From: Candidatus Poribacteria bacterium
GTDB taxonomy: Bacteria; Abyssobacteria; SURF-5
Direction of reading: 5' to 3'
DNA: 37,280 nt
Assembly: GCA_016215705.1 (NCBI GenBank)
Contig: JACRIR010000059.1
Span: 1 to 37,280 of the forward strand
In this document: positions 16,083 to 30,239 of the stretch, piece by piece
Layout of the letters: every line of letters begins with the position of its first letter
Numbering within the stretch: position 1 is the stretch's first letter
Position numbers and translations under genes: made by a program
The notes under the pieces: generated by a model
The model's input: only the letters and a program-made list of their open reading frames with translations
Databases searched by the model: none
What the model was told of the DNA's origin: nothing

Positions 16083-16158
16083 TGGTGGAGATGAGCGGAC
16101 TCGAACCGCCGGCCTACGCGTTGCGAACGCGCCGCTCTCCCAACTGAGCTACATCCCC
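16083..16158 (-). tRNA. tRNA-Ala, anticodon CGC
   Basis: The minus strand folds as a complete cloverleaf: acceptor stem GGGGATG/CATCTCC, D-arm GCTC/GAGC, anticodon stem GCGCG/CGCGT with loop TTCGCAA (anticodon CGC, codon GCG), 5-nt variable loop, T-arm GGCGG/CCGCT with TTCGAGT. The third acceptor pair is G3:U70, the alanine identity element. ACCA is encoded at the 3' end. 76 nt in all. Confidence 0.97.
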
Positions 16159-18841: not shown

Positions 18842-19843
18842 ATGCCAGCTACCGACCCACATCAACTCATTCAGGCAATTCTCGACGCAATAGAAGATTG
18901 CGTCTATTCGGCCGTCCCTGTTTCACCTGTCCGCCGGCACCCCCGGAAATTCGCCGTCACATCCCCGGAAGGACATGGGCTGTCGCTTTGGGTGTATATC
19001 TGGACGCTCACTCACGGAGGCCGATCATCGTTGCCCCACGAATATCGAATACAAATGACGACGGTCAATTCTCCGCTTGATGTGAATCCAACCGGACTAA
19101 CGATATTGCTCGGTTACGAACCTAGCCGGAAGGCGTTCGCCGGATTCGATTTGTCTCGTCACCGTTTATTTACCACCGGTTCTCCTTCAATTCAGATCGA
19201 CATCAGAACCCTCGATCAGAGCTTGCAGGACGGCTTGGCATTTTACCGCAAGAGCAACAGTGAGATCGCAGTCGGTGCTCGGCCCGATCAGCTTATGGCC
19301 TATGCTCAGAATGCGCAGAACCTTCACACATATGGTCGCCAGGCCGATACCCTAGGCCTCCTGCAGAAAGCATCGTCTCTTCAAGAGATATCCGAGCAGG
19401 ACATTGCTTTTCTCAACGCACAACGAAAACGCATCATTCAAACAGTGAGCCGCTTATCCCGTCAAGCCAACTTCCGGCAGCAGGTCTTGTATGCCTATGG
19501 AAATCGGTGCGCTGTCACAAGAATGCAACTACGTCTGGTAGATGCTGCGCACATCTTGCCTGTTGGAGCGCCAGGCAGCGCTGATGACATACGGAATGGA
19601 ATTGCCCTCTCTCCAACGTATCACCGAGCCTTCGACAACGGTCTCATTTACTTGGATGAGAGCCATACAATGCGCGTGAATCCTGAAAGGGAATCATCTC
19701 TTGCTGCTCTGCGCTTAGATGGAGGACTCTCGGGATTCAAGGCGGCGCTGGGCAGGGTTTTGCTCCCCCCTGATCGGAGGCAATGGCCTCATGCGACGTT
19801 TATCAAGAATGCCAATCGTTTTCGAAAGGTCAGAGAAAGCTGA
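18842..19843 (+). CDS. HNH restriction endonuclease
   Basis: 333 residues. The C-terminal HNH_2-type nuclease motif is clear: YGNRCAVT (Cys223), DAAHILPV (His237), NGIALSPTYHRAFD (Asn252, His261), the beta-beta-alpha metal site. The N-terminal 200 residues have no motif I recognise and probably bind DNA. Directly following the methyltransferase, it is best read as the restriction half of a type II system. The start ATG at 18842 has no strong ribosome site. An alternative, a modification-dependent nuclease, cannot be excluded but is less likely with a cognate methylase next door. Confidence 0.88.
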   Translation: MPATDPHQLIQAILDAIEDCVYSAVPVSPVRRHPRKFAVTSPEGHGLSLWVYIWTLTHGGRSSLPHEYRIQMTTVNSPLDVNPTGLTILLGYEPSRKAFAGFDLSRHRLFTTGSPSIQIDIRTLDQSLQDGLAFYRKSNSEIAVGARPDQLMAYAQNAQNLHTYGRQADTLGLLQKASSLQEISEQDIAFLNAQRKRIIQTVSRLSRQANFRQQVLYAYGNRCAVTRMQLRLVDAAHILPVGAPGSADDIRNGIALSPTYHRAFDNGLIYLDESHTMRVNPERESSLAALRLDGGLSGFKAALGRVLLPPDRRQWPHATFIKNANRFRKVRES

Positions 19844-27978: not shown

Positions 27979-28104
27979 GAAATCACGAATTCTTTTCGTG
28001 ATTTCTTGCGCGAACCCCACGCATACAAATCACAAGGGCGCAATGAATTGCGCCCCTACAGCCATGAATCAAGAGGCCCCGTAGGGGCGCGATTCATCGC
28101 GCCC
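27979..28104. repeat. Hairpin cluster upstream of the URO-D-like gene
   Basis: 27979-28005 has 11-bp arms (GAAATCACGAA and its complement) around a 5-nt loop. 28036-28055 (arms GGGCGCAAT) and 28085-28104 (arms GGGCGCGAT) form the usual opposed pair. The stretch 27756-27978 is purine-rich with no gene. Confidence 0.85.
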
Positions 28105-28143
28105 GGGTGTGCTGTTTTTGGCTGTGGCGTGATGGGCCGTGAA

Positions 28144-28201
28144 GGGGACTGTCCCTATTTACGGGCCGAGTTCTCTAGGCCGTACAATAGGGACTGTCTC
28201 C
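28144..28201. repeat. GGGACTGTCCC-type imperfect inverted repeat
   Basis: About 24-nt imperfect arms: GGGGACTGTCCCTATTTACG at 28144 and, at 28178-28201, the complement of GGAGACAGTCCCTATTGTAC. It shares its core with the MITE-like elements at 2009-2133 and 31816-31947 but lacks their CTAG termini. A TATAAT hexamer lies just downstream at 28219-28224 and may serve the next gene. Confidence 0.75.
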
Positions 28202-28260
28202 GAAGCCTATTGATAGTATATAATCTACGCAGCTTTGAACCGACTGGGGAGGGTGATCTG

Positions 28261-29460
28261 ATGCATACGGAATCGCAGACCCCGAAGGCGCGCATGCGGG
28301 CGGCGCTGCAAGGGAATAATCCGGGCGTCGTGCCTGCTGCGCCCGCATATCTTTGGCTTTTCCGGGAAGCGAGGGAAAAGCAATGTTACGTGGAGCAATA
28401 CCTTGACAGAATGCGAGGCATGAAGCGCTATCGGGCTGACCACGATGAGGATGTCGAGTTCAGGGCAAACGCCATATACCGCGCCTTCGAGATGTTCAAG
28501 GAACCGCCTGACTGGCTCGAGGTGAGCCCGGGCCCCGCGCGCGAGTGGGCCGGGCGGACCGAGATCGTTCTCGAAGACTCGAGGCTATGGTACCTCGACA
28601 CGGTCACCGGCGACCGATGTGACATGCTTGCATCGCGCCTGCCGTCGGGCAGAGACTACCTTTACGGAAACATCCCCTCGGCCCAGCAGGACGTGTGGGA
28701 TCAATCCGAACTCATCCAGAACAGAGACGTGATAGACGTGCTCGTGAGACTGGTTTCTCTTGAGGAACTACGCGAGCAGGGCGTTTTCGACCTACCCCGC
28801 AAGGTCGTCCGCGACAAAGGCGAAACGCTCTTTATCGTTGTCTATGACAGCACTCCTTACACGGCGACGTATCTGCTTGGCTTTCAGGGAACGATGCTGT
28901 CATTCTATGACAAGCCCGAAAACCTGAAATACTTTATCTCGCGTGTGCTCCAGCAGAGGCTGCCGATTCTGCGTGGATTCGCCGAGGTCGGCTACGACGG
29001 CATCTATGCCGAAGAAATCTTTAGCGGGGCCGACTTGATATCGCCGGTCGTCTTCGATGAATTCGTGCTTCCATTTAACGTGGAGTATTTCCGGACAACG
29101 CGGGAACTTGGCTTGTTGACCACGTATTATATGTGCGGCAACCCGCTTCCCCTGATCTCTAGACTCGTGCAACTTGAGTGCGATGCTCTCGCTTTCGAGG
29201 AGAGCAAGAAGAATTTCGCGATCGAACTCGAGGAAATCGTCCGACAAGCCGGCTCGCACAAATGTATCTTCGGCAATATCGACGCTCCGTACTACGGTCT
29301 CCACGCGAGCGACAACGAGGCCAGGCACGAGGTGCGTCGCCAGATAGAAATCGGATCGAGGGCGAAAGGATTCGTTGTCAGCACCGGCAGCCCGCTCCCA
29401 TTGGATACACCCTTGAGCAGAATTGACGCCATGATCTCGGCTGCACACGCATTCGCTTGA
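28261..29460 (+). CDS. Uroporphyrinogen decarboxylase (URO-D)-like protein, MtaA/CmuA-type superfamily
   Basis: 399 residues from the ATG at 28261 with GGGGAGGG 7 nt upstream; the frame open before that runs through repeats. The fold pattern of a URO-D TIM barrel is visible: GYDGIYAEE, ISPVVFDEFVLPF, then YYMCGNPLPLISRL (Cys292), DALAFEES, IFGNIDA and the terminal VVSTGSPLPLDTP. This branch includes methylcobamide:thiol methyltransferases (MtaA, MtbA) whose zinc site is H-x-C...C; here the position before Cys292 reads Tyr-Met, so the usual His is absent. It is therefore URO-D superfamily with uncertain chemistry. The selenoprotein candidate follows 77 bp downstream on the same strand. Confidence 0.85.
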   Translation: MHTESQTPKARMRAALQGNNPGVVPAAPAYLWLFREAREKQCYVEQYLDRMRGMKRYRADHDEDVEFRANAIYRAFEMFKEPPDWLEVSPGPAREWAGRTEIVLEDSRLWYLDTVTGDRCDMLASRLPSGRDYLYGNIPSAQQDVWDQSELIQNRDVIDVLVRLVSLEELREQGVFDLPRKVVRDKGETLFIVVYDSTPYTATYLLGFQGTMLSFYDKPENLKYFISRVLQQRLPILRGFAEVGYDGIYAEEIFSGADLISPVVFDEFVLPFNVEYFRTTRELGLLTTYYMCGNPLPLISRLVQLECDALAFEESKKNFAIELEEIVRQAGSHKCIFGNIDAPYYGLHASDNEARHEVRRQIEIGSRAKGFVVSTGSPLPLDTPLSRIDAMISAAHAFA

Positions 29461-29514: not shown

Positions 29515-29537
29515 TGACCAGAAGGGGGTGAAGGTTC

Positions 29538-30239
29538 ATGAATGAATCGAGCATGCTGGACAAGACGTTTAACATCATCATGAGACGCATGGTGCAAACA
29601 GGCCAGGCGCCTCACTACACGGAAATCGCCAAGGAGTTGGGCGTTTCCATGGTAGACGGCAAACAGGCGCTCCATGATCTCATCAACTCGGGAGTGCCCG
29701 GCTGGCTGTATCCGAAGACCGACCTCATCGTATCTATGGCGCCGTTCAATAATCTTCCCACCCAATACCGCATCACCATTGACGGTCAGCAGAAATGGTT
29801 CGGCCAGTGAGCGTTCGAATCGCTGGCGGTCTGCTGGCTATTCCCCGGAAAAACCGTTCGAATTGATGCGCCGTGTCTCGATTGCGGAGAACCCATCAGC
29901 GTCGAACTCAAGGACGGCGAAATCCTCAAGGCTGACCCTGACGGCATAATCGGGCACGTGTCCGTACCGTTCCTGAGTTGGATGCAAGACCCGGGCTTCG
30001 CCTGAAGCACCATGCTGTTCTTCCGGTCGGAAGAACACCTCAGGAATTGGGCCGACTTCGACCCGCAGACAGAGGCTGGAATTGTTCCCTTGCTCGACCT
30101 CGTGAAGTTGTTCTCCGCAGAATTTTTCCGGAGACGACTCGACCCCGACTATGTTTCGCACATGCAGGAATACGCAATGGGGTTTCTCGCAACGCTGAGA
30201 GAGATCGGCAAGACGGGTCCCTTCTGGCTGCCGGAATAG
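29538..30239 (+). CDS. merB: MerB-like organomercurial lyase family selenoprotein with two selenocysteines (in-frame TGA at 29808-29810 and 30003-30005)
   Basis: One continuous frame of 233 residues if both TGA codons are read as selenocysteine (U91, U156), ending at TAG 30237-30239. Residues about 20-52 form a helix-turn-helix-like N-domain (YTEIAKELGVS). MAPFNNLPTQYRI matches the MerB linker. GQ-U-AFESLAV aligns with the family WCALD block, placing U91 at catalytic Cys96, with Glu94 where the enzyme has Asp99. APCLDCGEPI matches the CPxCGEP block. FA-U-STMLFFRSEEHLRNW places U156 at catalytic Cys159; GKTGPFWLP ends the family. Each TGA is followed by a GGUC-loop hairpin. MerB cleaves C-Hg bonds using exactly these two cysteines. 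GAAGGGGG precedes the ATG. Neighbouring genes use TGA as a true stop, so recoding is local. A double-nonsense pseudogene is the alternative, but is unlikely. Confidence 0.88.
29817..29843 (+). promoter_or_regulatory. Predicted bacterial SECIS element 1
   Basis: Begins 7 nt after the TGA at 29808-29810. GAAU (29817-29820) pairs with AUUC (29840-29843); after one C/U mismatch, GCUGGC (29822-29827) pairs with GCUGGC (29833-29838) through two G-U wobbles, leaving the loop GGUCU (29828-29832). The loop matches that of the E. coli fdhF SECIS, and the first loop G is 18 nt past the TGA, within the range needed by SelB. Confidence 0.75.
30016..30037 (+). promoter_or_regulatory. Predicted bacterial SECIS element 2
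   Basis: A perfect 9-bp stem, UGUUCUUCC (30016-30024) with GGAAGAACA (30029-30037), closing the loop GGUC (30025-30028). The first loop G is 20 nt after the TGA at 30003-30005. The stem lies inside the conserved FFRSEEH codons, so it is coding and structural at once. This is the stronger of the two. Confidence 0.85.

Follow-up and report, generated by a model that had tools for sequence, protein, structure and literature searches.

A MerB-family gene from Candidatus Poribacteria with in-frame TGA codons at both catalytic cysteine sites and a bSECIS-like hairpin after each

Can one short bacterial gene carry two selenocysteine (Sec) codons, each served by a hairpin of its own, and if so, what might the protein do with two selenium atoms? 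The question is raised by a locus in a 37,280-nucleotide stretch of DNA, here called the window, from a Candidatus Poribacteria bacterium of the deep subsurface (GTDB lineage Bacteria; Abyssobacteria; contig JACRIR010000059.1). An earlier note, made from the sequence alone, had proposed that two TGA codons of this gene sit at catalytic cysteine positions and that each is followed by a hairpin resembling a bacterial SECIS element (bSECIS).

A MerB-family frame with two internal TGA codons

The gene lies on the plus strand (29538 to 30239), where both TGA codons fall in a single frame of 233 codons that is open when TGA is translated as Sec and that ends in TAG. A purine-rich stretch 5' of the ATG, AAGGGGGTGAAGG (29522 to 29534, plus strand), is a likely ribosome-binding site, as judged by eye only. 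With TGA translated as Sec, the frame scores 79.7 bits against the Pfam MerB family (PF03243; cutoff, 27 bits). Alignment to the solved structures of MerB and MerB2 places TGA1 (29808 to 29810; Sec91) at Cys96 and TGA2 (30003 to 30005; Sec156) at Cys159, the catalytic cysteines in MerB numbering. The available text of PMC8261052 agrees with this numbering, in that it defines MerB by Cys96 and Cys159. Both canonical cysteines are absent from the window protein, TGA standing in the place of each, and the two columns hold Cys in 15 Cys/Cys genes, which bears out the placement proposed in the earlier note. Further alignment puts Glu94 (GAA; 29817 to 29819) at the position of the MerB proton donor, Asp99, and Cys113 (TGT; 29874 to 29876) at that of Cys117. 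Glu replaces Asp99 in all three orthologues, the position is acidic, and, as indicated by alignment and fold, all metal-site positions are kept in the window protein.

Both TGA codons are retained in three of three genomes of the window's phylum, the other two orthologues being 77 to 80% identical to the window protein; one orthologue from the phylum matches Ca. Abyssobacteria SURF_17 (contig QZKI01000053.1). Comparison with genome G001 gave evidence of purifying selection downstream of TGA1 (dN, 0.16; dS, 0.82), and dN was much lower than dS in all three segments delimited by the two codons, wherever dS was computable.

More distant relatives were gathered with the Pfam MerB model, which returned 14 matches in 10 of the 386 genomes of the relatives set, only one match, already known, from the 12 genomes of G245's phylum, and 33 matches in 28 of the 396 genomes of G084's phylum. 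One new gene (L075) and one known gene were recovered from 162 genomes with a profile built on the second Sec/Sec clade, and a search of viral contigs yielded no relatives. We kept 41 MerB-domain genes, the window gene included, and left out a 472-amino-acid MerB-like ORF (L034), two genes below the cutoff (L061 and L062), two G418:C336 fragments without loci, and repeats of G084 and G245; L075 entered the pair counts only. At positions 96 and 159, the 41 genes encode Cys/Cys (15 genes), Cys/Sec (14 genes), Sec/Sec (11 genes), or Ser/Trp (1 gene), and none of the 41 combines Sec at 96 with Cys at 159. All 36 TGA codons found among 7182 domain codons, counted from 70 before position 96 through 40 after position 159, sit on these two columns.

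Several genes in this set have features of their own. G001 carries three MerB types (L026, L032, and L035, which are Cys/Cys, window-type Sec/Sec, and other-type Sec/Sec, respectively). The Ser/Trp gene, L052 from G559, has Trp at 159 encoded by TGG, one base from TGA, and is perhaps a decayed copy. In L049 and L054, Cys replaces Asp99 (CLWC/CMWC).

Hairpins downstream of the two TGA codons

Hairpin 2 (30016 to 30037, plus strand), UGUUCUUCC-GGUC-GGAAGAACA, is a perfect 9-bp stem, as the earlier note had it, in which 30016 to 30024 pair with 30029 to 30037 around a GGUC loop (30025 to 30028); the loop lies 19 nt past TGA2, its first G being the 20th base after that codon. Hairpin 1 (29822 to 29838, plus strand), with a loop 17 to 18 nt past TGA1, admits two readings. 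One is the arrangement described earlier, GCUGGC-GGUCU-GCUGGC, in which the loop begins with a G at the 18th base past TGA1 and is presumably that of E. coli fdhF. The other is GCUGGCG-GUC-UGCUGGC, with 7 bp, including two internal U-G/G-U pairs and a closing G-U pair, and a GUC loop. Both hairpins can be called bSECIS-like, since their distances (17 and 19 nt) and loops (GGUCU/GUC and GGUC) are inside the limits stated in the available part of section 5 of PMC13188914, namely, a loop 16 to 37 nt from the UGA and a G in the first two loop positions.

How far these structures exceed chance depends on whether the homologues are considered. Within the window alone, hairpin 1 is no more stable than shuffled sequence (z = 0.43; 119 of 200 shuffles fold as well), and its codon-shuffle p values are 0.077 with narrow spacing, 0.22 with wide spacing, and 0.11 by register. 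For hairpin 2, z is −2.08, an equally good fold is reached by 7 of 200 dinucleotide shuffles, and the corresponding p values are 0.02, 0.042, and, for the bare 7-bp register, 0.27. When sites from all genes were combined, codon shuffling with narrow spacing gave Fisher p values of 3e-6 for TGA2 (25 sites) and 2.6e-4 for TGA1 (11 sites), as opposed to 0.51 (29 sites) and 0.31 (15 sites) for Cys-codon controls; with wide spacing, the values were 0.007 for TGA1 and 0.0016 for TGA2 versus 0.11 and 0.15 at Cys codons. A fixed-register version, with registers picked after the sequences were seen, agreed with the best-hairpin version. The earlier note judged a chance origin very unlikely: with homologues, the signal is indeed far beyond chance, although the window alone makes only a moderate case.

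Evidence for hairpin 2 comes from folding, codon shuffling, and covariation. A hairpin with its loop 18 to 19 nt after TGA2 was best scoring in all 25 TGA-159 genes in the narrow search, and GGUC occupies the same four bases in 24 of them (25 of 26 when L075 is included) and in none of the 15 Cys/Cys genes. Across the 7-bp stem, 97% of cells are paired and five of seven pairs show changes on both sides; the covariation score was reached by 0 of 500 shuffles, and slid controls scored far lower. Where the protein reads Arg-Ser (CGG TCG), the stem closes with C-G; where it reads Trp-Ser (TGG TCA), it closes with U-A. At this site, Arg is encoded by CGG in 15 of 16 cases, compared with 72 of 322 in the rest of the same genes, and the adjoining Ser is TCG in all 16 Arg genes; in the Trp genes, Ser is TCA in eight of eight, compared with 10 of 118 Ser codons elsewhere in those genes. 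A ninth Trp gene, L075, uses TCG, which makes a U-G pair. Moreover, two near-identical genes have a flipped G-C pair, in which CTG goes with CAG. Together, the Arg-Ser and Trp-Ser codon choices and the flipped pair indicate that the RNA pairing is kept even though the amino acids vary. Among the three orthologues, seven of nine synonymous codons in the hairpin 2 region are identical, versus 40 of 129 elsewhere (P = 0.0075), and the count in the hairpin 1 region is five of nine (P = 0.13). Because the genes are related, the p values of these codon-choice and codon-identity comparisons overstate independence.

The peptide that follows Sec159, F-[RW]-S-E-E (30018 to 30035 in the window), occurs in most Sec MerBs and is absent from the Cys/Cys ones collected here; judging from the sequences, it seems to be set by hairpin 2.

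The evidence for hairpin 1 in the window clade consists of folding, codon shuffling, and three orthologues. The GCUGGC(G/A)-GUC-UGCUGGC stem is kept in all three genes, with one G-U to A-U change among just these three sequences. The first hairpin of the other Sec/Sec clade is CGCCCUU-CGUGC-AAGGGCG, 26 nt after TGA1, with 98% of cells paired in nine genes and double changes in two of seven pairs; its covariation was matched by 12 of 500 shuffles. Compensatory change is therefore found in hairpin 2 and in the distant-clade hairpin 1, while for the window-clade hairpin 1 it amounts to the single G-U to A-U change in three sequences. Similarly, every homologue with TGA2 has a hairpin at the same distance, whereas at TGA1 a common distance fails across clades because the hairpin lies 26 nt away in the distant clade and 17 nt away here.

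These observations confirm a MerB-family gene with two in-frame TGA codons at its catalytic sites and bSECIS-like hairpins, and the sequence comparisons support the reading of both codons as Sec, each with a hairpin of its own.

Decoding, function, and origin of the Sec sites

The three phylum genomes appear equipped to decode UGA as Sec. All three have SelA, SelB, and SelD above cutoffs and a tRNA-Sec, with a UCA anticodon as determined with ARAGORN. In each of the three, selD (L018, L019, and L020) has a TGA of its own (SGGUACK) and is itself a selenoprotein gene; the hairpin that scores highest there has a GUC or GUU loop in two genomes, and in L020 it is a different hairpin that ranks first. 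Across the wider set, SelA occurs in 21 of the 22 genomes that encode a Sec MerB, and since it also occurs in 12 of 13 genomes without one, its presence is necessary but not telling. G496 has a Sec/Sec gene yet no SelA match, and its genome is fragmented and 91% complete. G595 carries a merB of the other Sec/Sec clade immediately 5' of a same-strand run of selA, a selD-AhpD fusion, and selB (L069:1746-8270); this genome also has a second selA elsewhere.

The gene surroundings are less uniform. No conserved neighborhood was found among the three window-clade orthologues, and the neighbor scan around the window gene detected no mer operon or mer neighbors; the neighbors scanned were CstA, a URO-D/MtaA-like protein, TetR, a radical SAM protein, and others. 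The upstream neighbor (28006 to 29460), a homologue of URO-D/MtaA-like methyltransferases, was not among the scanned neighbors in the other two genomes. MerA scored below its family cutoff in three of three genomes. A MerA candidate near merB in G002 was rejected, as it scores as a dihydrolipoyl dehydrogenase. PADLOC returned no match for the MerB protein. Elsewhere, the window has a restriction-like gene (MTaX1 and HNH endonuclease; 18842 to 19840) and a tRNA-Ala (CGC) on the minus strand (16083 to 16158).

An AlphaFold2 model, computed from the aligned proteins of the window and the other loci, which represent 31 of the 41 genes, adopts the MerB fold (pLDDT, 94.3; pTM, 0.89). The nearest solved chains are mercury-bound MerB2 (VIA Z, 18.3) and MerB (Z, 16.6), followed by winged-helix proteins (Z, 9), and Foldseek E values to MerB2 and MerB are about 1e-10. 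We favor, with a probability of about 0.87, the reading that the product is a lyase of the MerB family with Sec predicted in place of both metal-binding catalytic cysteines, each UGA being decoded with its own hairpin.

Selenolates bind Hg more tightly than thiolates do and are deprotonated at neutral pH, and a selenolate site would, for these reasons, suit trace scavenging. A gain from selenium would also fit with the faster cleavage of organomercurials by small selones than by thiones, as described in the available text of PMC11639659. According to the portion of PMC4525700 available, either Cys96 or Cys159 of MerB binds Hg and the proton of the other goes to Asp99, from which the leaving group is then protonated; the corresponding residues here are Sec91, Sec156, and Glu94. 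In the mechanism that we propose, SelB and Sec-tRNA(UCA) would decode each UGA with the aid of its own hairpin, located just downstream within the coding sequence, and the two selenolates would most likely be opposed in the MerB pocket of the folded protein. There, the selenolate pair might hold the metal atom of an organomercurial or a related organometal, and Glu94, at position 99, might hand a proton to the leaving carbon, following the published MerB scheme. The likely function would be the cleavage of organomercurials, or of other organometals, at a diselenolate site. Because no MerA is above cutoff, the cell would need its own way to strip Hg off such a site.

Masking both catalytic columns, a tree of 41 proteins places the Sec/Sec genes in two places, and AU tests reject a single clade for the Sec/Sec genes (P = 0.014) as well as for the Sec genes (P = 0.00075). 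These results should be read cautiously, given the long branches and the fact that the groups were defined with the data already in view. As the first hairpin of the second clade is a different one, the Sec/Sec arrangement probably arose twice. The window clade joins Cys/Sec genes, and so it may have acquired Sec at 159 before acquiring it at 96. A wider proposal, to which we give about even odds, is that in a diselenolate organometal lyase both cysteines were replaced by Sec independently in two lineages, each of which built its own first SECIS, while the second hairpin largely dictates F-[RW]-S-E-E. If true, this history would point to chemistry that only a selenolate pair serves, such as that of a substrate at very low levels or of one resistant to dithiolates.

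Other explanations differ in how well they withstand these data. The locus might be a pseudogene, a set of two or three distinct ORFs, or the result of misassembly, with both TGA codons acting as ordinary stops; under translation table 11, the frame is split into ORFs of 90 and 75 amino acids, and TGA is a normal stop elsewhere in the window, ending 11 of the 21 larger ORFs. Such an account is very hard to reconcile with the retention of both codons in three genomes at 77 to 80% protein identity, with the low dN relative to dS in every segment for which dS was computable, with the restriction of TGA to two catalytic columns in 41 genes, and with hairpin covariation, and we consider it highly improbable. 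Somewhat less improbable, though still unlikely, is that only UGA2 is efficient and that UGA1 mostly terminates translation, yielding a 90-amino-acid winged-helix piece, with the double-Sec protein as a minor product and perhaps selenium-dependent regulation. Consistent with this idea, hairpin 1 is the weaker of the two, supported in the window clade by placement and three sequences only, and residues 4 to 68 alone match winged-helix DNA-binding folds. Nevertheless, purifying selection acts on the codons downstream of TGA1, the distant clade retains this TGA together with a strong hairpin that covaries, and 0 of 41 genes pair Sec at 96 with Cys at 159.

Two further readings concern function and history. 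Both residues could be Sec in a protein that is not an organomercurial lyase but acts on another organometal(loid) or serves in metal binding or sensing, as published proposals have it for Sec-assisted organometallic (SAO) proteins. The window protein scores 38.6 of 193 bits for the NCBIfam MerB model (NF009710) and 42.3 of 140 bits for SaoL, has no linked mer genes and no MerA above cutoff, and has Glu in place of Asp99, all of which suit this alternative; the fold and the full set of metal-site positions do not, and the lack of MerA loses force in light of the survey in PMC8261052, the available text of which gives 906 of 1795 MerB genomes, about half, as likewise without MerA. We view a nonmercurial role as a real contender, although less likely than not. 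It is also possible, with about the same likelihood, that Sec at 159 is one ancient trait repeatedly lost to Cys, such that the two Sec/Sec clades are remnants and not cases of convergence. The second hairpin is, after all, alike in all clades, with a GGUC loop, 19-nt spacing, and mostly F-[RW]-S-E-E, and the long branches may have misled the tree. The AU results speak against a single ancient origin, as does the fact that hairpin 1 differs in both sequence and distance between the two Sec/Sec clades.

Comparison with known systems

Most known selenoproteins are given redox roles. A natural diselenolate active site that can be compared with dithiolate MerB would offer a direct test of selenium's benefit in C-metal cleavage, and the presence of two natural SECIS elements in a single short message, separated by 195 nt, bears on how often a ribosome passes two UGA codons. 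In addition, estimates of demethylation potential among subsurface anaerobes may be too low because surveys based on Cys96 and Cys159 (such as that in PMC8261052, according to its available text) pass over Sec genes and because annotation cuts them at the first UGA.

The window protein resembles MerB itself (R831b MerB and Bacillus MerB2; PF03243) in fold (Z, 16 to 18), in both catalytic positions, in the Cys117 position, and in its winged-helix N-terminal part. It differs in having Sec for both catalytic cysteines and Glu for Asp99, in its identity of about 20%, in the absence of a mer operon around its gene, in a longer C-terminal end (the model aligned to about residue 205 of 233), and in a score far below the NCBIfam cutoffs for MerB, that of the equivalog NF009710 included. 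A further relative is SaoL (NF040728), a MerB-related selenoprotein whose primary paper is reportedly that of Haft and Gwadz in 2023. In the available part of Table 1 of a 2026 review (PMC13188914), SaoL is given as a MerB-like organometallic lyase with one Sec in a CU motif. The window protein, in contrast, has two Sec residues and falls short of the SaoL cutoff, and no SAO operon was seen around its gene among the scanned neighbors named above. The 14 Cys/Sec MerB-like genes of another phylum (e.g., L028) share the second Sec and a second hairpin with its loop at 19 nt; unlike the window gene, they have Cys at 96 and no hairpin signal after it. Recoding of several UGAs per chain is likewise known from MduS, MbdU, TsoB, a Prx-like UxxU protein, and others, which have two to three Sec residues in the same table of PMC13188914; in the part of that table available, none of the rows with at least two Sec residues belongs to the MerB family.

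Among the 11 proteins scanned across clades (the window protein and 10 others), no NCBIfam model (June 2026) scored above cutoff. A two-Sec MerB was not found in the literature searched, a search that mostly left subscription literature outside its scope, and none is described in the available portions of PMC9312934, PMC12013277, PMC2398784, PMC11639659, PMC12195606, and PMC5029168. Within the literature searched, then, the one-Sec relative SaoL is already in print, and the two-Sec MerB appears to be new.
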